From positions 1,166,001 to 1,230,000 of the forward strand of contig NZ_OW150024.1 of assembly GCF_933509905.1 (NCBI RefSeq): a stretch of 64,000 nucleotides of DNA, given 5' to 3'. The stretch's first letter is position 1; each line of letters opens with the position of its first letter. Both the position numbers and the translations under genes were made by a program. This stretch comes from Trichlorobacter ammonificans. Its GTDB lineage: Bacteria > Desulfobacterota > Desulfuromonadia > Geobacterales > Pseudopelobacteraceae. Of the stretch, positions 11,494-24,713 are shown in pieces. Under the pieces are notes generated by a model. It worked only from the letters and a program-made list of their open reading frames with translations. It was not told the DNA's origin and ran no database searches.

Positions 11494-12075
11494 ATGGCCG
11501 GATGTGAAAACGGGCTGGTACGTTCGCTCGAAGTCAGGCTGCCGGACTGGGTGGCGGAGCTGCTGAGCGGAGCGGAGCGCTATCCCGATGACGCAGCCCG
11601 GATGGGGCTGGCGGTGGCGCTGGCCGACCGCAACGTCACGGAAGGGGGCGGCCCCTTTGGCGCGGCGATCTTCGACCATACCAGCGGCCGGCCGGTCGGG
11701 GTCGGCATGAACCTGGTGCTGCCGGCCGGCAATTCGACGCTCCATGCCGAAATGGTGGCGATCATGGCGGCCGAGGCGGCCGTCGGCAGCCACACCCTGG
11801 CGCAGGCAGGGCGGTACGAGCTGTTCACCTCCTGCGCTCCCTGCGCCATGTGCCTGGGGGGGATACTCTGGAGCGGCGTGGAACGGCTGGTCTGCGCCGC
11901 CGACGCGGAGGATGCCCGCCGGATCGGTTTCGATGAGGGACCGGTTTTCGAAGAGTCGTACCGCTACCTGGAGGAGCGTGGGATCGAGGTAGTGCGGGGA
12001 TTCATGCGTGAGGCGGGCAGGGCGGTGCTGGAGCGCTATGCAGCCTTGGGGGGGCGGATTTACAACGGACGCTGA
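11494..12075 (+). CDS. Nucleoside/guanine deaminase-type zinc enzyme
   Basis: 193 residues from ATG 11494, which has AGGGGATGG before it; an ATG at 11470 overlapping the cupin stop is an alternative start. It is a cytidine-deaminase-fold hydrolase. The zinc His and catalytic Glu are in TLHAEMVAI, and the zinc cysteines are in SCAPCAMCLGGILW. The first conserved block is GGGPFGAAIFD. The GPFGA and CAMC patterns and the FDEG segment place it with guanine deaminase/tRNA-deaminase-like proteins, but substrate cannot be fixed. A canonical tRNA adenosine deaminase TadA would be shorter and more basic. It probably forms a two-gene unit with the MliC-cupin gene. Confidence 0.85.
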   Translation: MAGCENGLVRSLEVRLPDWVAELLSGAERYPDDAARMGLAVALADRNVTEGGGPFGAAIFDHTSGRPVGVGMNLVLPAGNSTLHAEMVAIMAAEAAVGSHTLAQAGRYELFTSCAPCAMCLGGILWSGVERLVCAADAEDARRIGFDEGPVFEESYRYLEERGIEVVRGFMREAGRAVLERYAALGGRIYNGR

Positions 12076-12220
12076 GCCCTCATCTGTCGCTCTTTGGGGC
12101 GTCGGCGCTCTTTTTCAGCTGATGACGCCACCGGTTATGCTATACAACGGGAACCCCGTGCGCCTGCGGCTGGCCGCATATCCCGTTTCAGGCGTGCGAA
12201 CAGGCTGGAAAGGATACGAA

Positions 12221-12556
12221 ATGATGATGAAAACGGTAGTAGCAGCACTGATGCTGGCAGTGTCGTTCCCGGCGGCAGCCGTGGCGGAGGCGCAGCTGTT
12301 TGAGCAGCTCGATACGGACAAAAGCGGCACTATCAGCCGCACGGAACTGCTGAAGGGTGACCTGGCGGTGGTGAGCGCCCCGGACGGTACGAAACGGGTG
12401 CAGCGGCGCGATCCGGCCGCCACGGGGCAGAACGTCCTGACCGAGGGGCAGAAACGCCGGTTGTTCGATACCCTCGACCTGGACAAGAACGGGTTCATCA
12501 GCCGCAAGGAATGGCAACGCGCCGCGCCCGGCGGCTTCATACTCTGGAAGTTCTAG
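12221..12556 (+). CDS. Small secreted EF-hand calcium-binding protein
   Basis: 111 residues from the first of three consecutive ATG codons, with GGAAAGGA 6 bases upstream. A signal peptide (LMLAVSFPAAAVAEA) is followed by two EF-hand loops: DTDKSGTISRTE and DLDKNGFISRKE. Both keep Asp, Asp, Ser/Asn, Gly, Ile and the final Glu needed for calcium coordination. The protein is probably periplasmic and binds two Ca2+ ions. It is separated by about 145 bases from the deaminase and by 156 bases from the SpoIIE-type gene, so it is probably transcribed alone. Its partner is unknown. The 12557-12712 gap shows nothing convincing. Confidence 0.8.
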   Translation: MMMKTVVAALMLAVSFPAAAVAEAQLFEQLDTDKSGTISRTELLKGDLAVVSAPDGTKRVQRRDPAATGQNVLTEGQKRRLFDTLDLDKNGFISRKEWQRAAPGGFILWKF

Positions 12557-12712
12557 GAGGCGGAGGAGGTGCTTTGGTTCAGGACGGAGAACGATTCGAA
12601 GAGATCGGCAGTGCCGGCCGGCGCCCCCTGGCCGGCATGACGGCGACGGGATTCCGACGATCCGCTGTCCGGGGCATCGTCACGCTTCACGACAGGCCGG
12701 GGGAGACGAGCG

Positions 12713-14668
12713 GTGCACTGGGCTGATCTGGGCGTCACGGCCCGGCTGATCCTTGCCCTGTCCCTCTGCGGCGGCTTGATCTTCGCCGTGGTGTTCTCCG
12801 TGAATGACCGCTTCACCAGCAGGCTGGTTGAAGAGCAGGTCATGGCCCACTCGCGGGACGTGGTGGCCGCGGCGGTCTACAGCATCGACGACCAGTTGCG
12901 GGCGGTGGCACGGGATCAGGCCACGCTGGCGACCGCCCTTGAGTCGGCCCCCCGGCTGACGACGGCCGACCTGCGCCGCATCCTGCGCTACCACGTTGCC
13001 ACCAACGAAGAGGTGTTCGGCGCCGCCATCGCCTTTGCCCCCGGTTTCTCCCCGAACGGCCGGGAACGTTCGGCCCCCTACTGTTTCAAACGTCTGAACG
13101 GCGAACTGGCCATTATCGACCTGGCGTCCCCTTCCTACAACTACCCGCAACAGCCCTGGTACCGCCTTCCCGCCGAGCGGAAAGCGCCGGTCTGGAGCGA
13201 GCCCTACTTCGACGAAGGGGGCGGCAACGTGGTCATGACCACCTATTCCGTCCCCTTTTACCGGATGCAGGGCGGGGTCCGCCGTTTTGCCGGCATTGCC
13301 ACCTCCGATGTCTCGGTGGACTGGCTCGGCCGTCAGATCGCCTCGCTCAAGCTGAACCGCAACGGCTACGCGGCGCTTTTTTCCCGCAACGGGGTCTACC
13401 TGGCCCATCCGGACCGCTCCCTGGTGATGCGGGAAACCCTTGCCGGCGTCGCCGAAAAGAAGAACAACCCGGTGCTGCGCGAGATCGGTCGGGCCATCAC
13501 CCGTGGCGAGAGCGGCTTTGTCACCGGCAGCAATGTCTTCGACAGGGAAAGCTGGATCTACTACGCGCCGGTGCCGGCCACCGGCTGGTCGCTGGCAGTG
13601 GTGTTCCCGGCGGAGGAGATGCGCAGCGAGGTGACCAGGATCGGCCGGATGATTGCGCTGCTCTGCATTGCCGGCATCGTGGTGCTGGTGTTGGCCATCG
13701 TGCTGGTGGCCCGCAGTGTCAGTCGTCCCCTGGCCGAGATCAGCCTGGCGGTGCAGCGGATCGCCGGCGGCGATCTGGACGGCGACCTGCCGCCGATTCG
13801 CGTCGGCGGGGAGGTGCGGCATCTGGCCGACTCCTTCGGACGGATGCAGCGGGATCTGAAGGAGCATATCCGGCAGTTGACCGAGACCACGGCGGTCAAG
13901 GAGCGGATGGCCGGCGAGCTGTCCGTTGCCCATGACCTGCAGATGGCGATCCTGCCCCATGAGCTGCCGGAGCTTCCGGGCCTGGAGATCGCCGGCTGCT
14001 GCGTGCCGGCACGGGAGGTGGGGGGGGATTTCTACGACGCCCGCTTGCTGGCCGACGGCCGCCTCTTCTTCGTGATCGGCGACGTTTCCGGCAAGGGGGT
14101 TCCCGCCGCCCTCTACATGGCCATGGCGGTCACCCTGGCCCGGGCCGGAGCCGGTGACGACTGCGATCCGGCCGAACTGCTGGGTCGAATCAATCGTGAA
14201 CTGTGCCGGGGCAATGACAGCTGCATGTTCGCCACCATCCTCTGCGGTATCATTGATCCGAACAGCGGCATGGTGCGACTGGCCAACGCCGGCCACACGC
14301 CGCCGGCAATCAGGCGTGCGGACGGGACGTGCGTTTTTCAGCGCCTCAGCCCCGGGCTGGTTGCCGGATATCTGGAGGATTTCACGTATGTCGAGGAGCA
14401 GGTGACGCTGATCGCCGGTGATACCCTGATTCTCTATACGGATGGGGTCACCGAGGCGATGAGCGGGGCAGGGGAGCTGTTCGGGGAAGCACGGCTGCTG
14501 GCCGCGCTTTCCGGCGGAACCGGCGGTGCGGGCGAGCTCCTTCGCAAGGTTGAGGAAGCCGTTGCCGCCTTTGCGGACGCCGCCAGCCAGTCCGACGACC
14601 TGACCATGCTGGCCCTGTTCCGCCGGGACGGCACGGGGAAATCAGGAGGAGCATGTACGTCTTTCTGA
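12713..14668 (+). CDS. Membrane sensor phosphatase: dCache, HAMP, SpoIIE-type PP2C
   Basis: 651 residues from a GTG with GGGGAG about 8 bases upstream. One membrane segment at about 10-30, an extracytoplasmic region to about 310 with Cache features (APGFSPNGRE, PWYRLP, YYAPVPATGWSLAVV), a second membrane segment at about 315-335, HAMP, then a PP2C phosphatase. The phosphatase metal Asp residues are present in GGDFYD, GDVSGKG, YTDGVTEA and QSDDLTM, so it should be active. Such enzymes normally dephosphorylate a STAS-domain anti-sigma antagonist, which would free a sigma factor or other output. No STAS gene lies in the cluster. It overlaps the MFS gene by 16 bases and heads the seven-gene run ending at 23812. 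Confidence 0.92.
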   Translation: MHWADLGVTARLILALSLCGGLIFAVVFSVNDRFTSRLVEEQVMAHSRDVVAAAVYSIDDQLRAVARDQATLATALESAPRLTTADLRRILRYHVATNEEVFGAAIAFAPGFSPNGRERSAPYCFKRLNGELAIIDLASPSYNYPQQPWYRLPAERKAPVWSEPYFDEGGGNVVMTTYSVPFYRMQGGVRRFAGIATSDVSVDWLGRQIASLKLNRNGYAALFSRNGVYLAHPDRSLVMRETLAGVAEKKNNPVLREIGRAITRGESGFVTGSNVFDRESWIYYAPVPATGWSLAVVFPAEEMRSEVTRIGRMIALLCIAGIVVLVLAIVLVARSVSRPLAEISLAVQRIAGGDLDGDLPPIRVGGEVRHLADSFGRMQRDLKEHIRQLTETTAVKERMAGELSVAHDLQMAILPHELPELPGLEIAGCCVPAREVGGDFYDARLLADGRLFFVIGDVSGKGVPAALYMAMAVTLARAGAGDDCDPAELLGRINRELCRGNDSCMFATILCGIIDPNSGMVRLANAGHTPPAIRRADGTCVFQRLSPGLVAGYLEDFTYVEEQVTLIAGDTLILYTDGVTEAMSGAGELFGEARLLAALSGGTGGAGELLRKVEEAVAAFADAASQSDDLTMLALFRRDGTGKSGGACTSF

Positions 14669-15852
14669 GGGATAATCGCAATTTCAGAAATTTCTGGCTG
14701 GGTCAGGTGGCCTCGCAGATCGGCGACCGGGTGCATACCCTGGCGGTGATCTGGCTGGTCTACACCTGGACCCGCTCCGGCACCGCCCTGGGACTGGTGC
14801 TGATCGCCGCCACCCTGCCGTCCGTGCTGGTCTCCCCCTGGGCCGGCTACCTTGCCGACCGTTTTGACCGCAGAAAAATCGCCATTGCCGCCGACCTGAT
14901 CCGCTGCCTGCTGGTGCTGGCCCTGGCCCTGCTGGCCTCCACCGGCACGCTGGAGATGACCGGCCTCGTCATCATGACGGCGCTGATCTCCCTGGCTTCC
15001 GCCTTTTTCAACCCCGCCACCCTGGCCATGCTCCCTGCGATCGTTCCGGCCGCGGACCTGGCGCGGGCCAACGCCATAACCCAGCTCTCCGCCAATGCCA
15101 GCGGTGCCCTGGGCTTTCTGGCCGGCAGCGGCCTGATCGCCCTGATCGGCGTGCCGGCCGCCTTCCTGTGCAACGGCGTCTCCTTCGTCGTCTCCGCCCT
15201 GCTGCTGGCCTCCATCGCCTATGCGCAGGCCGGCGGCGCCGGACACCCCTCCTTTCTCGTCAACCTGCGCGAGGGCTGGACCGTGGTGCGGGGCATTCCC
15301 GTGGTTGCCCGGTTGCTGGCCCCGCTGGTGGTGATCAACTTCCTCTTCTCCTCCCTGTCGGTGCTGATTCCGGTGTTCGGCGAAGGGGTGTTCCGGTCCG
15401 GTTCCGCCGGGGTCGGGCTGCTCCTGGCCGCCTTTACCTGCGGCATGTTCCTGGCGGCACTGGCGCTCAGCAGCTGGCATCCCGCGGCGTCGCTGTCCCG
15501 TCTGATGACCGCAAGCCTGCTGCTGGTGGGGGGAAGCTTTCTGCTGATGGGGCTGTTCGCCGCCATGCCGCTTTTCCTCGGCGCGCTGGCGCTGACCGGT
15601 TTTGCCCTGAACGGAGTGAACATCTGCCTGATCACCCTGTTCCAGCGGATGGTGCCGGGCGAGGTGCGGGGCAAGTTCTTCAGCCTGCTTACGGCGGTCT
15701 CCCTTTCGGCGCAGCCGATCTCCTTCGGCCTGACCGGCTGGCTGTCCGACCTGGTCAGCCCGGCGGTCATCCTGTCGGCCTGCGGCCTGGCCCTGCTGGT
15801 GTGTGCCGCGTTTGTTGCCCGGATCGGTGAGCTTCGTGACCAGTACGTGTGA
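14653..15852 (+). CDS. MFS transporter (MFS_3/EntS-like exporter)
   Basis: 399 residues with about 12 hydrophobic segments. The start FRNFWLGQVASQIGDRV and the loop motif GYLADRFDRRKI (MFS motif A between segments 2 and 3) are typical of the enterobactin-exporter-like MFS branch, which contains drug and siderophore exporters. It overlaps the preceding phosphatase by 16 bases and is followed after 8 bases by the first PaaK-like gene, so co-expression is likely. In context it could export the product of the adenylating and reducing enzymes encoded downstream. The substrate is inferred from context only. Confidence 0.85.
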   Translation: MYVFLRDNRNFRNFWLGQVASQIGDRVHTLAVIWLVYTWTRSGTALGLVLIAATLPSVLVSPWAGYLADRFDRRKIAIAADLIRCLLVLALALLASTGTLEMTGLVIMTALISLASAFFNPATLAMLPAIVPAADLARANAITQLSANASGALGFLAGSGLIALIGVPAAFLCNGVSFVVSALLLASIAYAQAGGAGHPSFLVNLREGWTVVRGIPVVARLLAPLVVINFLFSSLSVLIPVFGEGVFRSGSAGVGLLLAAFTCGMFLAALALSSWHPAASLSRLMTASLLLVGGSFLLMGLFAAMPLFLGALALTGFALNGVNICLITLFQRMVPGEVRGKFFSLLTAVSLSAQPISFGLTGWLSDLVSPAVILSACGLALLVCAAFVARIGELRDQYV

Positions 15853-15860
15853 GGTGTGCC

Positions 15861-17225
15861 ATGCATGATATGACCAGCTTTGCCCTGCAGGTGTCCGGGC
15901 GTGTCCCCGGCTACCGCAGCTTCCTGGCGGCGCAGGGGGCTTCCGCCGACCTGCCGTTCGAGCAGCTGCCGCTCACCACCAAGCAGAACTATCTGCTGGA
16001 CTACCCCATCGAGGAGCTCTGCTGGGACGGTTCCATCGGCGACTGCCATCTGATCGGCGCCAGTTCCGGTTTCAGCAAGTCCGGCTCGGTGTTCTGGCCC
16101 AAGCGGCCGGAGGACGAAAACCGCTACCTGGAGTCGCTGGAGGGGATGCTGGTGCAGCACTACGGCATCGACCGGGAGCGGACCCTGATCCTCTGCTGCA
16201 TGGCCCTGGGTACCTGGTTCGGCGGCATGGCGGTCACCGCGGCCTTACGGGTCATTGCGGCATCCGGCCGGCTGCCGATCACGGTCTGCACGCCGGGGCT
16301 GAACCTGGCAGAGGCGGTGGAGATCTATGCCCGGTTTTATCCCAATTTCAGCAAAATCCTCTGGATCACCAACCCTTCCAACATCGGCCTGATCACGGCG
16401 CTTCTGGCAAAGCGCGGCGTTACGCCGCCGCCGGGCAGTTGCAGCTTTCCGGTGCTGGGGGAGTACTTCAGCGAGGCCTGCCGGGAGACGGTTGCCCGGC
16501 GTTACGGCCACGATCCCGCTGCGCCGTTCGTGCTCTGGACCGGCTACGGCTCGGCGGATACCGGCGATATCGCCGTGGAGACCGCCCCTGCCATCCGGCT
16601 GCGCAAGTTCTTCCACCACCGGCCGGACCTGGGACGGGAGCTGTTCGCCACCGAGGACACGCCGATGCTGCTGGAGGTATCCCCCAAGGTGCATCTTGAA
16701 CTGGTGGACGGCATGATCGTGGTCACCAAGGATCAACTGGTGCCGCTGGTCCGGTACAATACCGGCGATCTGGGAGGGCTGCTGGCAAAAGCCGACCTCG
16801 CCCGGCTGGATGGCCTGCCCGGCGAACTGCTGCACGAGCTGCCGGAGCAGGTGCTCTTCGTGCGGGGCAGGGCCGCCAATGCCGTGATCTTCTACGGCAC
16901 CAACCTGGACGTGCAGGAGATCAACCGCTTTTTCCTCGACCAGCCCCGCGACATGGCCTACTCCGGCCTGTTCACGGTGAAGATGGTGGAGGAGGAGGGC
17001 GTTGCCTGCTTCGACTTCACGGTGCTCGTGGAAGGGGAAGCCAGCGACGACCTTGCCCGACGGTACCGGGAAGCCTTGCTGGGCTATCTGATCGGCAGAA
17101 GTCGCGAGTTCGAGACCAAGTACGCCAGTCTGACCCGTTCCACGGGATGTGAGCTGATCCGGCTGCGGGTACAGGAGCTGGAGGGCGACAAGGGCGCCGT
17201 CAAGCACCGCTATATCCTGGACTGA
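15861..17225 (+). CDS. PaaK-like adenylate-forming protein with altered P-loop
   Basis: 454 residues from ATG 15861 (GAGGTG upstream; a GTG at 15849 overlaps the MFS stop). The fold resembles phenylacetate-CoA ligase-type adenylating enzymes: PLTTKQNYLLDYP near the N-terminus, an ASSGFSKSG segment where the AMP-binding loop should be, LVRYNTGDLGG near residue 300, and a C-terminal basic ending KGAVKHRYILD. The usual SSGTTGKP loop is changed and the zinc-type CxxC/CPCG motifs of its cluster paralogues are absent. It may be active with an unusual acid, or act as a non-catalytic partner. It is the third gene of the run. Confidence 0.75.
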   Translation: MHDMTSFALQVSGRVPGYRSFLAAQGASADLPFEQLPLTTKQNYLLDYPIEELCWDGSIGDCHLIGASSGFSKSGSVFWPKRPEDENRYLESLEGMLVQHYGIDRERTLILCCMALGTWFGGMAVTAALRVIAASGRLPITVCTPGLNLAEAVEIYARFYPNFSKILWITNPSNIGLITALLAKRGVTPPPGSCSFPVLGEYFSEACRETVARRYGHDPAAPFVLWTGYGSADTGDIAVETAPAIRLRKFFHHRPDLGRELFATEDTPMLLEVSPKVHLELVDGMIVVTKDQLVPLVRYNTGDLGGLLAKADLARLDGLPGELLHELPEQVLFVRGRAANAVIFYGTNLDVQEINRFFLDQPRDMAYSGLFTVKMVEEEGVACFDFTVLVEGEASDDLARRYREALLGYLIGRSREFETKYASLTRSTGCELIRLRVQELEGDKGAVKHRYILD

Positions 17226-17243
17226 TCACAGGGAGGAACAGGG

Positions 17244-18527
17244 ATGGAACATCTCACGGAAGAGCTGCAGTGCGCCAGGGGGGCCGAGATCGTGCGGGAG
17301 TCGCTCGCCTCCCGCTTCTATGGAGAGAAATACGCCGGCTGCCCGGTTCCCGGCAGTCGTGAGGCGTGGCAGCAACTGCCGCTCCTGACCCGTGCGGAGA
17401 TTTACGAGCGCTCCTACCCCCATTCCACCGACATGCTGACCCGTCCGCTGGAGGATGCCATCATCATCTCCACCGGCGGCTCCAGCGGCATTGCCCGCTA
17501 CACCACCTACACCCATGCCGAATGGGACGCTTTCGTCACCTGCCAGGCCGCTGCCATGCGCATCCTGGGGATCACCCGCCAGGACCGGGTGGCCAACCTG
17601 TTCATTGCCGGCCATTTCTGGCCCTCCTTCCTGGGGCTGCACGACTGCATCAAGAAACTGGGGGCCGTGCACCTGCCGATCTCGGCCAACATCCCGATGG
17701 AAGAGGTGGTGAAACTCTGCCGTACCTTTGAGCCCACGGTAATGGTCTCCCTGCCCACCCTGTTCGTCTTCATGGCCGACATGGCCAAGCGCGACGGCTT
17801 CAGCTTCCCCGGCCTGCGTATGATCAACTACGCCGGCGAGCATTTAAGCGCCGCTGCCGAGGCCCATGTGGCCGCAGCCCTGGGGGTCTCCCACATCAAG
17901 GCCGGGGCCTACACCAGCGCCGATGTCGGCATCATGGGCTACCAGTGCGACCACTGCGGGCCTGGAACCTACCATGTTCCCACTGCCTTCCAGTTCGTGG
18001 AACTGGTCAACTTCGAGGAGAACCGTGCTGCCCGCATTGGCGAGATGGGTGAGGTGGTGGTCACCAACCTAAGCCGGGTCTCCACGCCGATCATCCGCTA
18101 CCGGGTGGGGGATCTGGCTGCCTGGACCGGCAGCCCCTGTCCCTGCGGCGATCCCAACCCGTGTCTTAAGCTGGGGGGACGGGCCGGACAGGACTTCAAG
18201 CTGGGGGGCGGCTTCATTTCGCTCGACCTGTTCGAGAACGCCATTGCCGCCCATCCGGACTGTTTCAGCCTCAACTTCCAGCTTGAGATCGAAGATGTGG
18301 CAAGCCAGTTCACCGTGGTGCTGCGGATCGAAGCGCCGTCGCAACCGGACCGGGCAACGCTGGCTGCGCTGGAGCGGGACCTGTTTGAAGCGGTGCCGGA
18401 GCTTAAGATTTCAACGGAAAAAGGGTACCTGAAGTCCTTTGTCATTGAGGCGGTCGAACTGGGTTCGCTGCCGCGCAGCCCGATCACCGGTAAGGTGGCG
18501 CGGCTGGTGGATCGGCGGGTGCTCTAG
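17244..18527 (+). CDS. PaaK-like adenylate-forming ligase with zinc-type cysteines
   Basis: 427 residues; the start is supported by GGGAGG 9 bases upstream. AMP-binding loop IISTGGSSGIARY near residue 75, GYQCDHCGPG near residue 235, IIRYRVGDLAAW near residue 285, then SPCPCGDPNPC and a catalytic-type Lys in SPITGKVARLV near the C-terminus. The two cysteine clusters look like the structural zinc site found in many PaaK-family enzymes. The reaction would be ATP-dependent activation of a carboxylic acid to an acyl-adenylate, then possibly a thioester. The protein aligns well by eye with the C-terminal half of the LuxC fusion two genes downstream, suggesting paralogy. LuxE follows after 6 bases. 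Confidence 0.8.
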   Translation: MEHLTEELQCARGAEIVRESLASRFYGEKYAGCPVPGSREAWQQLPLLTRAEIYERSYPHSTDMLTRPLEDAIIISTGGSSGIARYTTYTHAEWDAFVTCQAAAMRILGITRQDRVANLFIAGHFWPSFLGLHDCIKKLGAVHLPISANIPMEEVVKLCRTFEPTVMVSLPTLFVFMADMAKRDGFSFPGLRMINYAGEHLSAAAEAHVAAALGVSHIKAGAYTSADVGIMGYQCDHCGPGTYHVPTAFQFVELVNFEENRAARIGEMGEVVVTNLSRVSTPIIRYRVGDLAAWTGSPCPCGDPNPCLKLGGRAGQDFKLGGGFISLDLFENAIAAHPDCFSLNFQLEIEDVASQFTVVLRIEAPSQPDRATLAALERDLFEAVPELKISTEKGYLKSFVIEAVELGSLPRSPITGKVARLVDRRVL

Positions 18528-18533
18528 GAGGAG

Positions 18534-19655
18534 ATGATGATTGAAGAGGCAACCAACCGGCTTTATCAGCGTGAACAGGCCTTTGACCAGTCGACGGAAG
18601 GCCGGGAGCTGTTCACGCTATCCATGCGGGAGATGGTCGCGTTCCATATCGAACATTCCCCGGTCTACCGGGGTATCTGCGGGCAGTACGGCTTTACGCC
18701 GGAACAGATCCGCACGCATGACGATCTGATCAGCATTCCCCACATCTTCGTCACCGCCTTCAAGCAGCACCGGCTGCTCTCCCTGCCGGAAGAGGAGATC
18801 GCCATGACCTTCACCTCCTCCGGCACCCAGGGGCAGAAAAGCCAGATCAACCTGGACCGGCTCTCCTTCGAGCGCCAGGCCGGTATGCGCAGCCTGCTGG
18901 TGCGCTCCCTGGGGCTGACGGACGAACGGCCGGTCAATTACCTGGTCTTCTCCTATGCCCCGGATATCGCCGATAACCGGGGAGCGGCCCATACCTTCAA
19001 CGTTTACACCTCCTTTGCCCCGGCGGCGGAGAAATATTTCGCGCTGCAGCAGGGGGCAGGGGGAGAGCCGGCCTTTGATCTGGAGCAGGCCATCGCCACC
19101 CTGGCCCGCTTTGCCGAAAGCGGGTTACCGTTGCGGGTGGTGGGCTTTCTGGCTTTCAGCTTCGTCACCCTGCTGGAAATGCAGCGGCGGGGCATGCGCC
19201 TGCAGTTTCCGGCGGAAAGCCTGCTGATCACCGGCGGCGGCTGGAAGTCCCATACCGGCGCGACGGTCAGCTTTGAGCAGTACGCGGAGCTGGTTCACGA
19301 GCTGCTGGGGATCAGGCCGGAGCGGATCAGGGATTTTTACGGCATGGTGGAGCACGGGGTTCCCTACATGAGCTGCGGCCAGCGGCACTACCACGTGCCG
19401 GTCTTTGCCAACGTGGCGGCCCTGGACCCCGGCACGCTGCGGGTCTGTCCCCCGGGGGAGACCGGGCTGCTCAAGCTGCAGACCAGCTACATCAGGAGCG
19501 CACCGGCCATATCGGTGCTTTCCACCGACCTGGGAACCATCGGCCGCGACTGCCCCTGCGGCATTCCGGGGGAGTTTATCAAGCTTCAAGGGCGGGCCGG
19601 AGTGACCAAGCATGCGGGCTGTGCCATTTCGGCTTCGCAACTGATCAAGCTGTGA
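18534..19655 (+). CDS. LuxE-family acyl-protein synthetase
   Basis: 373 residues, the normal LuxE length. LuxE activates a fatty acid with ATP and passes it through an enzyme thioester to the LuxC reductase. The ATP-binding loop is TFTSSGTQGQKSQINLD near residues 90-105, IPHIFVTAFKQH lies before it, and DFYGMVEHGVPY near residue 265 matches the LuxE family. A late CPCG (RDCPCGIPGEF) is present. The start codon sits at AGGAGGAG; the second ATG (18537) gives better spacing. LuxC follows 13 bases downstream, the expected reductase partner, but no luciferase (luxAB) or LuxD transferase genes are in the window. Confidence 0.87.
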   Translation: MMIEEATNRLYQREQAFDQSTEGRELFTLSMREMVAFHIEHSPVYRGICGQYGFTPEQIRTHDDLISIPHIFVTAFKQHRLLSLPEEEIAMTFTSSGTQGQKSQINLDRLSFERQAGMRSLLVRSLGLTDERPVNYLVFSYAPDIADNRGAAHTFNVYTSFAPAAEKYFALQQGAGGEPAFDLEQAIATLARFAESGLPLRVVGFLAFSFVTLLEMQRRGMRLQFPAESLLITGGGWKSHTGATVSFEQYAELVHELLGIRPERIRDFYGMVEHGVPYMSCGQRHYHVPVFANVAALDPGTLRVCPPGETGLLKLQTSYIRSAPAISVLSTDLGTIGRDCPCGIPGEFIKLQGRAGVTKHAGCAISASQLIKL

Positions 19656-19668
19656 CAGGAGAAGGAAT

Positions 19669-22341
19669 ATGGTGAAATGGTACAACTTCGGCAGCTTTGA
19701 GGAGTCAGCCGCAATCACGGCTGAACTGATGCACGCTATCTTCACTACGGCCCGCAGCCGCACGGCACAGATCCGGGAGACGCCGTCGGGCAGCCTGGCC
19801 GCGGTGCTTGACCGGGCGGGCAGGCGGCTGGCCGACCCGGCCGATCCGGTGCGGCAGGAGATCGTGGCGGTGATGCCGGGGCAGCTCGGTTTCTCGCAGG
19901 AGATGGTGGTTGCCGGTCTGGAGGCGATCTGCTGGATCCTGCGCTACGACAACCTGATGCAGCGGCTGGCGGTGGACCTGGACGATCCCCGCTACCTGGA
20001 CGAGTTTGTCTGGCACGAGCGGTTCCGCGGCTTTGTGCGGGCCATGCCCCAGGGGGTGGTCTCCCACGTTTCCGCCGGTAATGTCTTTGTCAGCGCCGTG
20101 GATACCCTGGTGCAGGGGATCATGACCAAGAACGTCAATATCCTGAAGATGTCCTCCTTTGATCCGGTCTTTCCGCTCCTGTTCGCCCGGCTGCTGGAAG
20201 AATGCGATCAGGAGCGGTTGATCTGCCCCTGTCTGGCCCTGCTTCCCTTCAAGGGAGGAGACCGGGAGATCGAGGCGATCGTCAAGGAACAGTCCGACGT
20301 GGTGATCGTCTACGGCGGCAAGGAGGTGGTGGAGATCTACCGGCAAGGACGGGGGCTGCACACCAAGGAGGTGGAGTACGGTCCCAAATACTCCCTGGTG
20401 GTGCTGGACCGCGAGGAGTTACAGAGTTGCGACCGTGAGGAGGTAGCCCTGCAGGTGGCCCGGGACTTCACCATGTGGGAGCAGGCGGCCTGTTCCTCAC
20501 CCCATGCGGTCTTTATTCAGGGCGAGGAAGAGGCGCGGCGCTTTGCCGGCGAGCTGGCAACGGCCCTGGAGCGACTCTGCGGCGAATTCCCCTTTCCGCG
20601 CATCAACCGGGACGAGCAGACCGAGATCACCCGCGTCCGCGAACTGGCCAGGGTGGATCAGGCCCTGGGCACCGCGGAGCTGCTGATTCCGGCGGCAGAT
20701 GACCAGCGCTGGACCGTGATCCTGGAGAAGCATCCCTGTTTCAAGGTTTCCTGCCAGCACCGCACCGCCTTTGTGGTGGCGATCAACAACGACCGGGAGC
20801 TGTACGCCACCCTGGAGGAACAGGGTAAATTCATCCAGTCCGTGGGCATCCTGGCCGACAGCCGACGGCTGTTCGAACTGTCCGACCGCCTGGTGGCCCT
20901 GGGGGCGGACCGGATTACCGAGATCGGGCGGATGCACAAACGCAAGCACGGCACCCCCCACGACGGCACCCGCGGTCTGGCCGAGCTGGTGCGCTGGGTC
21001 TCGGTGGGCCACGAGCGCCGCTTCCACGACCCCTTTGATTTTGCCGATGAGGCCACCCGCCGGGCGCGTACCCTGGGCAGGCTTAACCAGGTACTGGAAA
21101 CGGCCCGCCGCCACTCCCCCTTCTACCGTGAGCGGTTGCCGGTGGGTCCGCTTGCCGACCTTGGCCAGCTGGCCACGCTGCCGATCCTTGAGCCGGACCA
21201 GTTCCGCAGCCACCTGCCCCCCTACGGCGAGGGACTCCTCACCGGGCCGCTGGGCAGCTCCATCTCGTTTTCCAGCGGCGGCACCACCGGCAAGCCCAAG
21301 TTCGTCTACCGCACCCTGGAGGAAACCCGCCGCAATGCGGCCGGCATCGCCAAGGGACTGGGCCTGGGGCTGTTCAACGAGGGGGAGGTGGTGGCCAACC
21401 TGTTCTTCGCCGGCAACATGTGGGCCTCCTTCATCAGCATCAATATGGCACTGGAGCTGATCGGCGCCCATATCCTGCCCATCGGCGGCCATGTGCCGAT
21501 GGAGAACATCATCTCCTTCCTGCGGGCCTTCAAGGTGGACGGCGCGGTCTCCATCCCCTCGGTGTTGGTGGGGATCGCCCAGTACGTGGAGAAAAACAAC
21601 ATCACCGACCTGACCATCCGCAAGATCGGCTACGGTGGCGAGCATATGCCGGAGGCCACCCGGCAGTACGTGGCCTCGGTGCTGAAGACCGAGCTGATCC
21701 GCTCCGCCTCCTACGCCATCAATGACACCGGCACCGTGGGATACCAGTGCCCGGCCTGCACCGGGTCGGTGCACCACCTGAACGAGGAGCTGCACATCCT
21801 GGAGATCGTTGATCCGGAGACCGGCCGACTGCTGCCCCCCGGCGAGATTGGCACCATCATCCTGACCAACGTGGACCGCACCCTGATGCCGGTGATCCGC
21901 TACAACGTTGGTGACCGGGGCCGGATCGTTCCCGGTGACTGCCCCTGCGGCCGCACCAGCCTGCGCTTCGAGCTTTTGGGGCGCTCCGACGAGGTGGTGG
22001 TGATCGGCGCCGACAACGTCTCCATCGATGCCGTTGCCACCTGCGTCGCCCAGGTTGAGGGCTTGAGCCAGAACTTCGTCATCCACGGCCGGCAGCAGGA
22101 AGGGCTGGATCTGCTGCTGATCCGGGTGGAATCACTGGAACCGCTGACGGCAGAGACTAAAGAGCGCCTGTCCCGATGCCTGGTGGAGACCCTGCTGCGG
22201 GAAAAGCCGGTGATTGCGACAAACCTGGCCAGTGGCACCGTGGCGCGGCCGCTGGCGGAGGTGCTGGAACCGGGCGAACTGCCGCGCAATCCCAAAACCG
22301 GCAAGATCAAGCGGGTGGTGGAGGAACGTCATGGCGGCTAG
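19669..22341 (+). CDS. LuxC-type acyl reductase fused to a PaaK-like ligase
   Basis: 890 residues, about twice the length of LuxC. Residues 1-460 are LuxC-like: VVSHVSAGNVFVSAVDTL in the nucleotide-binding part, and the acyl-accepting Cys275 in WEQAACSSPH. Residues about 465-890 form a complete adenylating domain with the AMP loop SFSSGGTTGKPKF, GYQCPACTGS and GDCPCGRTS cysteine pairs, VIRYNVGDRG, and a C-terminal NPKTGKIKRVV Lys motif. LuxC reduces an activated acyl group to an aldehyde with NADPH, so this protein could both activate an acid and reduce it. No frameshift or internal start was seen at the junction. The stop overlaps the next gene by 11 bases. Confidence 0.85.
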   Translation: MVKWYNFGSFEESAAITAELMHAIFTTARSRTAQIRETPSGSLAAVLDRAGRRLADPADPVRQEIVAVMPGQLGFSQEMVVAGLEAICWILRYDNLMQRLAVDLDDPRYLDEFVWHERFRGFVRAMPQGVVSHVSAGNVFVSAVDTLVQGIMTKNVNILKMSSFDPVFPLLFARLLEECDQERLICPCLALLPFKGGDREIEAIVKEQSDVVIVYGGKEVVEIYRQGRGLHTKEVEYGPKYSLVVLDREELQSCDREEVALQVARDFTMWEQAACSSPHAVFIQGEEEARRFAGELATALERLCGEFPFPRINRDEQTEITRVRELARVDQALGTAELLIPAADDQRWTVILEKHPCFKVSCQHRTAFVVAINNDRELYATLEEQGKFIQSVGILADSRRLFELSDRLVALGADRITEIGRMHKRKHGTPHDGTRGLAELVRWVSVGHERRFHDPFDFADEATRRARTLGRLNQVLETARRHSPFYRERLPVGPLADLGQLATLPILEPDQFRSHLPPYGEGLLTGPLGSSISFSSGGTTGKPKFVYRTLEETRRNAAGIAKGLGLGLFNEGEVVANLFFAGNMWASFISINMALELIGAHILPIGGHVPMENIISFLRAFKVDGAVSIPSVLVGIAQYVEKNNITDLTIRKIGYGGEHMPEATRQYVASVLKTELIRSASYAINDTGTVGYQCPACTGSVHHLNEELHILEIVDPETGRLLPPGEIGTIILTNVDRTLMPVIRYNVGDRGRIVPGDCPCGRTSLRFELLGRSDEVVVIGADNVSIDAVATCVAQVEGLSQNFVIHGRQQEGLDLLLIRVESLEPLTAETKERLSRCLVETLLREKPVIATNLASGTVARPLAEVLEPGELPRNPKTGKIKRVVEERHGG

Positions 22342-23812
22342 CGTTGCGTTTCCCTACGGCCCCGTGGCGCGCACCACGGTGGGCTCGCAGCCGCAATCGT
22401 TGCGGCCGGTACAACTCTGGGCGGCGGAGTTTGCCCGCTGTTTCGGCATATCCGGGGATGAGCTGACCAGGATTGAACTGGCGGTGGAAGAGGCGTTCAT
22501 GAGCGTGGCCCAGAGCGCCTTCGAACCGGGGGAGAGCGGCGAGATCACCCTGGTGCTGGAACACCGTCCCGGCAGCTTCGTCATTGCCGTGGAGGACCAC
22601 GGCCTGCCCCTTGACCTGAAACAGCTGGAAGAGAACGAAGGACTTGCCTTAAACCTGCTGCTGCTGCGGCACCTGCTGGACGGCTTCTCCTTCATCAACC
22701 GCGGCAAGGAGGGGAAACGGCTGGAACTGATCAAGCAGCTTCCTGCCGAGAGTGTTGCCACCGGCATGGAGCAGCAGGACACTCCCGAGCAGCAGGCCGC
22801 CGTCTGTCCGGCGGAACAGCCGCTCTTGCGCCTGCTGCGGCCCGACGAGTCCCTGGCCCTGGCCCAGCTTGCCTACCGCAGTTACGGGTATACCTATGTC
22901 AGCGACTTCTACTACCCGGAACGGATTCGGGAGCGGATGGCAGGGGGACTGATGGAGACCTGCGCCGCCGTGCTGCCCGACGGACGTATAATCGCGGCAT
23001 TGAGCCTGTTCTACGACCGTGCCGATGCCTGTGTGGCCGAGTGCGGCGCCGCCATGGTGGACCCCCGCTACCGGGGATTAAGCCTGTTCAAGGAAATGAA
23101 GCTGTTTCTGTTCGACCATGCCCGATGCAAGGGGCTCTACGGCATCTACAGCGAGGCGGTCACCATCCATCCCTACACCCAGCAGGGCAACCTGTCCCTG
23201 GGGGCGCGGGAGACCGGCATCCTGCTTTCCTACGTCTCGGAAAACGTGGCCTTCAAGAAGATCGGCAACGAACTGATGGGGCAGCGCCAGGCCCTGGTCT
23301 ACTTCTACTACCGCCTGAACCGGGAACCGCTGCGCACGGTCTGGCTGCCGGCGCTCTACGCCGGGCTGATCCGGCGGGTCTATGCGGAAAACGGCCTGAA
23401 CCGGCAGGTGGAGGAGGTGGCGGCAACCGACCGGATCGCAGGCGGAGAGACGCGGCTTGCCATCCGGATACGCCGCGACGCCTTCAACGACGCCACCATC
23501 GAACCGCAACGGATCGGCAGCGATGCCTGCGTCATGATCCTGCACCACACCAGGGAGCTGTGCGAGAAGAAGGTGGAGGCGGTCTATCTGGACCTTTCGC
23601 TGGGGAGCCCCGAGGCAGCGGCGCTTGCCGGACAGCTGGCGGAAAAGGGGTACCTGTTTGCCGGGATCATTCCGGAGCTTGAGAACGGCGACCTGCTCAG
23701 GCTGCAGTACCTGAACAACGTGCAGTTCGACCCGGCCAGGGTGACGGTGGTTTCCGACACCGCCAAGGAGCTGCTGGCGTTCATTACCCGCCAGTATGAA
23801 CAGCGTCCCTGA
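22331..23812 (+). CDS. Anti-sigma-kinase-like ATPase domain fused to GNAT acetyltransferase-like domain
   Basis: 493 residues from ATG 22331, overlapping the LuxC-PaaK stop by 11 bases. Residues 1-130 resemble the RsbW/SpoIIAB GHKL kinase fold: RIELAVEEAF in the N-box helix and FVIAVEDHGLPLDL. The N-box Asn that binds Mg-ATP is replaced by Ser58 in EEAFMSVAQ, and GLALNLL sits where the second nucleotide loop is expected. Residues about 160-345 look like a GNAT N-acyltransferase (PRYRGLSLFKEMKLFLF as the acyl-CoA loop region, FKKIGN). The rest is unassigned. The first domain would be the natural partner of the SpoIIE-type phosphatase at the cluster start. It may be a degenerate kinase or a binding-only domain. 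Confidence 0.75.
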   Translation: MAASVAFPYGPVARTTVGSQPQSLRPVQLWAAEFARCFGISGDELTRIELAVEEAFMSVAQSAFEPGESGEITLVLEHRPGSFVIAVEDHGLPLDLKQLEENEGLALNLLLLRHLLDGFSFINRGKEGKRLELIKQLPAESVATGMEQQDTPEQQAAVCPAEQPLLRLLRPDESLALAQLAYRSYGYTYVSDFYYPERIRERMAGGLMETCAAVLPDGRIIAALSLFYDRADACVAECGAAMVDPRYRGLSLFKEMKLFLFDHARCKGLYGIYSEAVTIHPYTQQGNLSLGARETGILLSYVSENVAFKKIGNELMGQRQALVYFYYRLNREPLRTVWLPALYAGLIRRVYAENGLNRQVEEVAATDRIAGGETRLAIRIRRDAFNDATIEPQRIGSDACVMILHHTRELCEKKVEAVYLDLSLGSPEAAALAGQLAEKGYLFAGIIPELENGDLLRLQYLNNVQFDPARVTVVSDTAKELLAFITRQYEQRP

Positions 23813-24092
23813 ACAGGCAGAAAAACTGACACCGGTAAAAAGGTGGCATGCAGGAGTATTGTGTAATATCAGTTGGTTGTTTCGTTTGTCCTCGCGAGCT
23901 GTCCAGAGAGCATACCATCCTGCGGCTGCCACAGCGGCCCCCTTCTTCCGCCGAATGTCATGAGACTGCATGCCTGCAGTCGATATGCCGGATGTGGCAC
24001 GTCACCTGCAAAGCTGACCCACATTGACGAGATAGGTCCGAGCAGACAACGGGACGCCGGGGCGCCATCCGGACGGTCGGGTATCCCTCCAT

Positions 24093-24133
24093 GGTCAGGG
24101 GCTGTTTCTCCTTCCCGGCCCCTGACCCTTTTT
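24093..24133 (+). terminator. Strong intrinsic terminator just upstream of the CHRD gene
   Basis: GGTCAGGGGC (24093-24102) pairs perfectly with GCCCCTGACC (24118-24127) and is followed by CTTTTT. It ends 40 bases before the CHRD start codon and 280 bases after the previous stop. It may terminate the seven-gene operon or act as an attenuator for the CHRD gene. The rest of 23813-24173 holds no gene; it contains another perfect hairpin, GACTGCA-TGCC-TGCAGTC, at 23964-23981. Confidence 0.75.
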
Positions 24134-24173
24134 GCGCAGAGGCAGTGAGATGCCACAGCAAGGGGGCAGAGTA

Positions 24174-24644
24174 ATGAGCAGAGTAACATTGGGACTGGGT
24201 ACGGTAGTGGCCGCCATGCTGCTGGCATCCGCCGGCTTTGGGGCCGAGCAACGCTTCAGTGCGGCTCTGGTGGGAACGGAAGAGGTGCCGGCGGTCGCGA
24301 CGGCAGCCACGGGTGATGTCAGCGTGACGGTGAGCAGTGATGGCGAAACGCTGCACTACCGGCTGCAGGTGGAGAAGCTGGAGAACATCCGGGTTGCCCA
24401 TATTCACCGCGGCATGCAGGGGGCGAACGGACCGCCGGTGGTGTTTCTGTTCAGTGGCCCGAAAAAGCCGGGTATGTTCAGTGGCGTTCTGGCGGAGGGG
24501 ACCATCACGGCGCGGGAACTTTCCGGCGAGTTTGCCGGGAAAACGCTGGACGAACTGCTGCAGCTCATCACTACGGGGAACGCCTATGTGAACGTCCATA
24601 CGGATGCCCACCCCGGTGGCGAGATTCGGGGGCAGCTCAGGTAG
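24174..24644 (+). CDS. Secreted CHRD-domain protein
   Basis: 156 residues from ATG 24174, with AAGGGGG 7 bases upstream. A signal peptide (VVAAMLLASAGFGA) precedes a single CHRD domain: FSAALVGTEEVPAV at the start, VAHIHRGMQGANGPPVVFLF in the middle and the closing NAYVNVHTDAHPGGEIRGQL. CHRD (chordin-like) domains are extracytoplasmic beta folds of unclear role in bacteria, and the conserved His residues suggest metal binding. The gene stands alone between a terminator and the convergent helicase gene. Confidence 0.88.
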   Translation: MSRVTLGLGTVVAAMLLASAGFGAEQRFSAALVGTEEVPAVATAATGDVSVTVSSDGETLHYRLQVEKLENIRVAHIHRGMQGANGPPVVFLFSGPKKPGMFSGVLAEGTITARELSGEFAGKTLDELLQLITTGNAYVNVHTDAHPGGEIRGQLR

Positions 24645-24666
24645 CTGCCGTTATTGCTGACAAGTG

Positions 24667-24699
24667 ACCAGCCCGGTCCGCATGGCGGGCCGGGCTGGT
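24667..24699. terminator. Hairpin between convergent CHRD and helicase genes
   Basis: A 14-pair stem (24667-24680 with 24686-24699, one G-T pair) lies between the two convergent stop codons. No T-tract follows on either strand, so intrinsic termination is uncertain. Confidence 0.45.
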
Positions 24700-24713
24700 G
24701 CGGGAAGGATCGT

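Follow-up and report, generated by a model that had tools for sequence, protein, structure and literature searches.

A conserved seven-gene operon of Trichlorobacter ammonificans combining acid activation, LuxC-type acyl reduction and an acyltransferase fused to an RsbW-like domain under putative partner-switch control

The 64,000-nucleotide stretch of the Trichlorobacter ammonificans genome analyzed here (contig NZ_OW150024.1, positions 1,166,001 to 1,230,000; hereafter the window) encodes seven consecutive genes, G1–G7, at positions 12713–23812 of the + strand. The operon is a new combination of components of known kinds, namely LuxCE reduction, PaaK activation, a GNAT acyltransferase and a partner switch, and no description of it was found among the open-access papers listed, as judged by titles and abstract openings and, in one of the searches, by 25 of 113 matches. 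Judged from gene order and sequence identity, G2–G7 is a coherent unit conserved across phyla and not a chance neighbourhood. At a probability of about 0.5, the genes represent an operon dedicated to biosynthesis and export that has spread horizontally and is controlled by a partner switch; the pathway would be leupeptin-like in its logic and independent of non-ribosomal peptide synthetases (NRPS). Regulated synthesis and export of an acid-derived product had already been suggested in a preliminary description of this DNA made from the sequence alone, and with the conservation of G2–G7 across phyla it is upheld as the best reading. The seven genes are as follows:

12713..14668, + strand: G1, membrane sensor phosphatase, dCache-HAMP-SpoIIE/PP2C (651 amino acids, GTG start; Pfam)
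14653..15852, + strand: G2, MFS exporter (399 amino acids; Pfam MFS_1/MFS_3)
15849..17225, + strand: G3, divergent PaaK-fold protein, probably adenylating (458 amino acids; predicted fold only)
17244..18527, + strand: G4, PaaK-like adenylating enzyme (427 amino acids; Pfam AMP-binding, 44.8 bits)
18534..19655, + strand: G5, LuxE-like acyl-protein synthetase (373 amino acids; Pfam LuxE, 160.7 bits)
19669..22341, + strand: G6, LuxC acyl reductase with a fused PaaK-like domain (890 amino acids; Pfam)
22331..23812, + strand: G7, RsbW-fold domain (residues about 9–138), GNAT domain (162–335) and C-terminal part (about 340–490) (Pfam and structure model)

The co-directional arrangement with overlaps or gaps of less than 20 bases noted earlier was confirmed, with overlaps of 4–16 and gaps of 6–18 bases (16 and 4 bases of overlap for G1/G2 and G2/G3, gaps of 18, 6 and 13 bases from G3/G4 to G5/G6, and an 11-base overlap of G6/G7). 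The start of G7 was set at the ATG at 22331, the open reading frame (ORF) list having the TTG at 22214 instead. The close packing and the conservation suggest that G1–G7 are read as one transcript. Scanning of positions 12000–24700 revealed no sigma-70-like promoter site (mean of 1.5 in shuffled sequences) and seven terminator-like sites as against a mean of 8.4 in the shuffles. The domain assignments of the preliminary description held for G1 (dCache-HAMP-SpoIIE), G2 (MFS), G4 (PaaK-like), G5 (LuxE), G6 (LuxC-PaaK) and G7 (GHKL-GNAT), while the PaaK-like nature of G3 was seen by predicted fold only.

The gene order MFS-G3-G4-LuxE-LuxC/PaaK-G7 was found to be common to four other genomes from at least two phyla, represented by loci L012, L013, L015 and L019 (Bdellovibrionales), with 55–83% identity to G2–G7 of the window. 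A search for the same order beyond this genome had been proposed as a check, and with its recurrence the notion of a chance neighbourhood fails. Permuted gene sets were observed in L135, L032, L020 and L023; in L135, from another genome of the phylum, G7 comes first and is followed by the same five genes. Within the genus, a LuxC match was present in four of 15 genomes (G000, which is that of the window, G011, G012 and G013), and overall in five of 57, the fifth being a very weak match in another genus. Genome G013 (L012) contained all seven genes in the same order at 42–81% identity, with genes for a STAS protein, a separate RsbW-like protein and an NMT1-type binding protein upstream. G011 (L013) carried G2–G7 in order with a STAS gene upstream and without G1, and G012 (L014) carried a diverged and rearranged set. 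The position of G1 varied. In L012 it precedes the MFS gene, in L015 the MFS gene together with an HD-domain gene, and in L019 it comes after G7. In a phylum sample of 395 genomes, for which at most two candidates per genome were scored, the LuxC-PaaK fusion occurred in four (G000, G140, G142 and G405, the last cut by a contig end). Genome G142 (L153) showed in a row LuxE, LuxC-PaaK, PaaK, G7, STAS, an RsbW-like gene (20 bits) and SpoIIE. The scan of species genomes yielded 48 loci (L016, L018 and L042 correspond to L013, L012 and L014, respectively); it employed two short peptide patterns from the LuxC part, and the distribution is a lower bound. A DUF559 gene, absent in the window, was located between LuxE and LuxC-PaaK in L013 (10260-10700) and L015 (9445-9822).

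Phylogenetic analysis of 37 LuxC-PaaK proteins (midpoint-rooted; 22 rows with unlike letter make-up) placed the window and 12 others in one group (100/100), which spans Geobacteraceae, other deltaproteobacterial genomes, Comamonas, Bdellovibrionota, Bacteroidota, Pelotomaculum and Acidobacteriota. This group of 13 rows was delimited partly from identity, and G3 together with G4 was seen in nine of the 13; in L022, L024 and L025 the contig ends short of the place expected for G3/G4, and L017 has full flanks without them. L042/L014, belonging to the same genus as the window, paired with Bacteroidota (100/100), and G6 of the window showed 64–66% identity to its Comamonas and Bdellovibrionales counterparts as against 32% to that of L014. 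Since both the tree grouping and the identities cross phyla, the operon is read from its sequences as horizontally spread and mobile. The guanine-plus-cytosine content lends no support to this, as it hardly differed between the operon (0.62–0.67 in 1500-base steps) and its flanks (0.61–0.66) and bore no signature of recent import. A role in anti-phage defence was rejected since none of the seven proteins matched PADLOC, and a phage origin since none of G5–G7 matched PHROGs.

The acid-activating and reducing enzymes encoded by G3–G6 form the center of the operon. Three adenylating modules of one family had been counted earlier; the number of ANL-fold modules is four if LuxE is included. G4 matched the NCBIfam models of the DVU_1553 family (95.8 bits) and of PaaK (76.1 and 84.6 bits), and the PaaK phenylacetate-CoA ligase model TIGR02155 (cut-off 646.3) scored 76.1 bits with G4, 108.4 bits with G6 and gave no match with G3. 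G4 and the C-terminal domain of G6 thus resemble PaaK ligases and the DVU_1553 family by sequence, and G3 does so by predicted fold; they differ in that all scores, as for every NCBIfam match within the operon, fall below the curated cut-offs. G3 had no sequence match in Pfam, NCBIfam or PDB. Its best structure model (predicted local distance difference test score, pLDDT, of 77.9; 61–64 for the other four models) matched PaaK (2y4o, E 9.8e-17) best, followed by other acyl-CoA ligases and GH3 amido synthetases, and the motifs SSGFSK, YGSAD, RYxTxD and KH were invariant across 10 aligned rows. It is probable from the modeled fold that G3 is an adenylating enzyme.

G5 aligned to LuxE of the LuxC-LuxE reductase structure 7xc6, with Cys363 aligned to the C-terminal cysteine of the latter. 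This residue was invariant in 24 of 24 rows (the window and 23 of 27 listed loci, with L021, L026, L027 and L055 left out of the alignment). G6 comprises LuxC (266.2 bits, residues 46–443), AMP-binding (536–732) and AMP-binding_C_2 (789–887) domains by Pfam; its LuxC part aligned to 7xc6 chain A and its PaaK part to 4r1l/2y27, and the stretch WEQAACSS aligned with the QQAC stretch that holds the nucleophilic cysteine of LuxC in 7xc6. The conserved cysteine of LuxE is the acyl acceptor and that of LuxC the catalytic nucleophile. The enzymes are homologues, with the acyl-carrying cysteines conserved, of the LuxC-LuxE reductase of bioluminescent bacteria. Unlike in that system, LuxC is fused to PaaK and accompanied by a GNAT domain and extra ligases, and the scores are far below the curated cut-offs (119.7 bits against 550 for LuxE, 125.1 bits against 750 for LuxC; NCBIfam). 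Moreover, a Pfam scan of nine proteins, those of G1–G7 and of one gene close by on either side, revealed no luciferase (LuxA, LuxB) or LuxD, the remainder of the genome not having been searched for luciferase. In agreement with the preliminary description, nothing points to bioluminescence, which was ruled out on these grounds.

The biosynthetic part of the proposed pathway may be outlined as follows. The discrete adenylating enzymes (G3, G4 and the PaaK domain of G6) would activate carboxylic acids, and the GNAT half of G7 would couple the activated acyl group to an amine, giving an N-acyl cap or an amide. LuxE would activate the free acid end and hand the thioester to the LuxC domain, which would reduce it to the aldehyde. 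The MFS protein would then export the product, an acyl-amide or amino-acid-type aldehyde or a follow-on product. The substrates, the product and the order of these steps are conjectural. The primary source behind the description of the non-NRPS leupeptin pathway is reportedly the 2020 work of Li et al. As described, that pathway uses separate AMP-dependent ligases and a reductase giving an aldehyde (in the parts covered of PMC11212599). An acyl-amide aldehyde is proposed here because discrete ligases and an aldehyde-forming reductase match that description. The likeness to the leup operon of Xenorhabdus, Photorhabdus and Klebsiella is by description only, kinship not being proven, and the parts covered of the available accounts (PMC11480411, PMC11212599, PMC11865988) contain no gene sequences or per-gene functions. 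The present operon differs in its partner-switch control. G2, the putative exporter, matched the NCBIfam models of an H+ antiporter (219.5 bits, cut-off 319.6) and EntS (102 bits, cut-off 324).

The neighbours of the LuxC loci were compared. The scan included 39 fusion-type loci, of which 21 had flanks of 4 kb or more on either side. Among 38 fusion loci, many on short contigs, 30 had LuxE nearby, 26 GNAT and 20 a GNAT with fused HATPase; MFS and SpoIIE were found in 13 each, 12 had a separate HATPase and 11 STAS, and G3 and G4 were seen in 8 each. The 21 full-flank loci showed LuxE in 20, GNAT in 18, HATPase/RsbW-like fused to GNAT in 13, MFS in 11, SpoIIE in 9, STAS in 9, either SpoIIE or STAS in 11, a separate HATPase in 7 and G3/G4 in 6. 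Among nine unfused LuxC loci (L054–L062; seven with 4 kb on both sides, and not including L026, a fusion cut by a contig end), LuxE was present in five, and GNAT, MFS, SpoIIE, STAS and HATPase in none. The STAS and kinase genes of L015 lie just past the stretch tallied, and the MFS counts leave out MatE exporters of the kind that replaces MFS in Paludibacteraceae (L020) and Pelotomaculum (L023; same family by clustering). In L027 (Armatimonadota), a single ORF of 1314 amino acids fuses LuxE-LuxC-PaaK.

Several loci contained the enzymes without the switch. Clostridium loci L035, L037, L044 and L053 showed GNAT-LuxE-LuxC/PaaK without the RsbW-like (HATPase) half, and a Streptomyces plasmid (NZ_CP108162; L130) carried PaaK-MFS-GNAT-LuxE-LuxC/PaaK consecutively, with no STAS, SpoIIE or RsbW-like match in its 18 kb by profile search. 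Two more actinomycete plasmids (L133 and L134) matched the same set, with weak GNAT scores of 31 and 23 bits; G7 itself had no match on plasmids at 1e-8 in 72,556 records. Since the plasmid set of Streptomyces has no switch, the unit seems to consist of the enzymes and the exporter, to which the partner switch was apparently added as a control. By the same sequence comparisons GNAT is a core member, kept in Clostridium and Streptomyces where the switch is absent, a point that the preliminary description had overlooked. The GNAT part of the window's G7 did not match amino-acid acetyltransferase models, those of some relatives matched them weakly, and the Streptomyces GNAT scored 26 bits with a beta-lysine acetyltransferase model (cut-off 205).

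These observations bear on a simpler alternative, in which the product is a plain fatty or aromatic aldehyde or alcohol (a volatile, a signal, or a membrane or surface component), the PaaK enzymes feed CoA thioesters, and GNAT is only regulatory or self-protecting. The conserved cysteines of LuxE and LuxC would equally serve such a pathway, and LuxE-LuxC pairs without a GNAT match do exist elsewhere (L055, L059–L062 and plasmid loci). However, GNAT is tied to the LuxC-PaaK fusion (18 of 21 full-flank loci as against none of nine unfused ones) and is kept without the regulatory domain, and it therefore behaves as a pathway enzyme; the plain-aldehyde explanation is thus considered doubtful, though of some weight. 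Unfused LuxE-LuxC pairs on plasmids (L129, L131 and L132) were accompanied by an SDR or 3-oxoacyl-ACP reductase gene and by ABC transporter genes, the latter located after LuxC in Priestia and Azospirillum and before the LuxE-LuxC pair in Pantoea, and suggest another LuxCE pathway. In the deep-branching loci L033 (3106-6237), L036 (7146-10340) and L049 (2867-5995), LuxC-PaaK was followed by a protein of about 1050 amino acids of one family, of which the L033 member scanned is a TPR-repeat protein.

G7 matched Pfam HATPase_c_2 with 52.2 bits and GNAT with 19.1 bits, the latter just under the curated cut-off of 20.7. In its structure model (pLDDT 81.8), residues 9–138 adopt the RsbW fold (6m37, Z 17.2, root mean square deviation 2.0, 113 residues aligned) and residues 162–335 the GNAT fold (structural Z up to 13.5). 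The predicted strands and helices of residues 340–490 make up an additional domain that may, as modeled, be another GNAT-like fold; structure matches of the full model were taken up by the RsbW and GNAT domains. The N-box asparagine of RsbW/SpoIIAB kinases functions in ATP/Mg binding. In G7 of the window it is replaced by serine, and it was lost in 11 of 11 full-length fused G7 proteins of the window's tree group (Ser in six, Arg in three, Tyr in two). No GLG-type loop was seen in the aligned stretch of these proteins. Separate RsbW-like proteins or domains were present in the same-group loci L012, L015, L017, L019, L020–L022, L024, L025 and L032, and the asparagine was found in 13 of 13 aligned ORFs whose RsbW-like domain is not fused to GNAT, namely 11 separate kinases from LuxC clusters, the L023 split half, and L072, where no LuxC was seen; the separate RsbW-like kinase of L015 also retains it.

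The GHKL half of G7 had been described earlier as a kinase-like partner of the phosphatase. Owing to the loss of the N-box asparagine, and because most relatives encode a separate, asparagine-keeping RsbW-like kinase along with STAS, the RsbW-like domain of the window's G7 is, on comparison of these sequences, probably no longer a kinase. Were G7 a genuine anti-sigma-type kinase, it would form a conventional partner switch acting on operon transcription or a sigma factor, with GNAT as a fused second output. The RsbW fold and the SpoIIE phosphatase in the operon are in agreement with such a role, as is the asparagine in seven of seven fused proteins of the other lux-type group, in 21 of 29 HATPase-GNAT fusions of the phylum sample (L064–L092) and in the split Pelotomaculum protein. 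Three of those 29 fusions derive from LuxC-PaaK genomes, namely L084 and L090 (Tyr) and L082 (Asn), and the fusions of L090 and L082 lie inside LuxC-PaaK clusters. Nevertheless, the uniform substitution and the missing loop in the window's own group, together with the asparagine-bearing RsbW-like protein beside STAS in most of its relatives, render an active G7 kinase unlikely.

The pathway proposed here instead assigns G7 the role of a target of the switch. G1 showed Pfam matches to SpoIIE (181.6 bits, curated cut-off 25), dCache_1 (66.8 bits) and HAMP (48.1 bits) and carries the motifs GGDFYD, GDVSGKG, YTDGVTEA and SDDLTML. The acidic motifs of SpoIIE/PP2C proteins bind metal. The match to the SiaA phosphatase model (NCBIfam) was weak, at 55.9 bits against a cut-off of 700. 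SpoIIE was accompanied by STAS and by an RsbW-like kinase, as a gene or a domain, in L012, L015, L017, L019, L024, L025, L032, L048, L050 and L153. In the proposed mechanism, the Cache-HAMP-SpoIIE phosphatase would dephosphorylate the STAS protein and a separate RsbW-type kinase would phosphorylate it; the unphosphorylated STAS protein would dock on the RsbW-like domain of G7 and turn the acyltransferase or its complex on or off. This resembles the RsbU/RsbV/RsbW and SpoIIAA/AB systems in the SpoIIE-type phosphatase and the RsbW-fold domain, with STAS and RsbW-like genes in the loci of relatives, and differs in the RsbW-like domain, which has an acyltransferase fused to it and no asparagine at the N-box. 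It is likely that the output of the switch is an enzyme and not a sigma factor. Docking on a G7 pseudokinase is proposed because the domain has the RsbW fold but has lost the asparagine, and because SiaABCD of Pseudomonas aeruginosa provides a precedent: there, the partner protein SiaC binds and activates the enzyme SiaD (PMC8457831). SiaD, by the same account, is a diguanylate cyclase that is bound at a stalk of its own, whereas the enzyme here is an acyltransferase with an RsbW-like domain. A binding-protein family was observed beside the SpoIIE phosphatase in L012 (16146-17153), L015 (2-1018) and L046 (4406-5533), one of the three loci being from Bacteroidota. Its L012 member is NMT1/THI5-like, and such a protein may supply the ligand sensed by the phosphatase.

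Several observations weigh against a partner-switched acyl-amide aldehyde operon. The window had no STAS match and the operon no separate kinase, the absent STAS partner having escaped the preliminary description. L013 contained STAS without a separate kinase or SpoIIE, and in L135 G7 was the sole switch gene in its 17.5 kb; no separate kinase was found near the operon in L013/L016 or L135. The STAS partner and kinase of the window's operon are presumably encoded elsewhere in the genome, which has STAS genes over the cut-off at C1:569066, 1292589, 1909938 and 1903612 (the last inside a frame of 584 amino acids) and RsbW-like genes at 1292117 and 1909505. The orphan STAS at C1:569066 adjoins a Tll0287-HAMP-PAS sensor; it shares 55.6% identity with the STAS of the L012 operon and could, by a weak sequence argument, be the partner of G7. 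The assignment is weak because the L013 operon STAS is equally close to 1909938 (45.7%) and to the orphan (45.5%), leaving the partner unsure. The split Pelotomaculum G7 (L023) retains its asparagine within the window's own group. G7-type fusions occurred at 29 loci (L064–L092), many in genomes without a LuxC-PaaK match, and since they are common in such genomes G7 also works without LuxC; G7 profile matches were present in 150 of the 395 genomes, many to one half only. GNAT was below threshold in three of 21 full-flank fusion loci (L027, L031 and L052), L052 also being without LuxE. The rows compared lack independence, as three are from Paludibacteraceae and two are near-identical Acidobacteria; the same loci also served to build the profiles, so that the counts denote presence and not independent discovery. 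Finally, a gene of the molybdopterin aldehyde-oxidase/xanthine-dehydrogenase type (L013:14964-17252) starts 8 bases past G7 and could fit an oxidative use.

Modification of a protein or the cell surface, with GNAT transferring acyl groups activated by LuxE/PaaK onto a protein or polymer and the LuxC aldehyde serving in cross-linking, would draw on the acyl-protein chemistry that is the established role of LuxE and would give the extra C-terminal domain of G7 (340–490) a place. This is improbable, as a small-molecule-type exporter (MFS, or MatE in relatives) belongs to the set and no polymer or acceptor-protein gene appeared among the annotated recurrent neighbour families, not every family being annotated. 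A chance neighbourhood of unrelated genes, for which the LuxC match in just four genomes of the genus, the window's included, might speak, is refuted for G2–G7 by the order shared with four other genomes of at least two phyla and the permuted sets in several more, and is given practically no credence.

Partner switches are best known for regulating sigma factors, and few of their known targets, such as SiaD, are enzymes. The present operon is of interest because a retired anti-sigma kinase domain is likely to control a biosynthetic acyltransferase directly. A tentative, bolder extension is that of a cross-phylum, NRPS-independent pathway family in which such a domain, fused to the acyltransferase, would be the docking site for direct on/off control of synthesis by a partner switch, the product exported being an undescribed acyl-amide aldehyde (a signal or protease inhibitor). 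Full-length HATPase-GNAT fusions of about 500 amino acids are common in the phylum (L064–L092), and their neighbours within 1.5 kb per side were mostly unrelated genes, with STAS, SpoIIE or MFS in a few cases. If the extension is true, the many such fusions without LuxC would be other enzymes under the same direct control. LuxC-PaaK beside LuxE and GNAT offers a simple handle for unexplored NRPS-independent clusters, including those of Clostridium and faecal Bacteroidota. With a switch domain fused to a biosynthetic acyltransferase, and a kinase residue that one lux-type group has lost and the other has retained, it would become testable whether a natural-product pathway is gated directly at the post-translational level.

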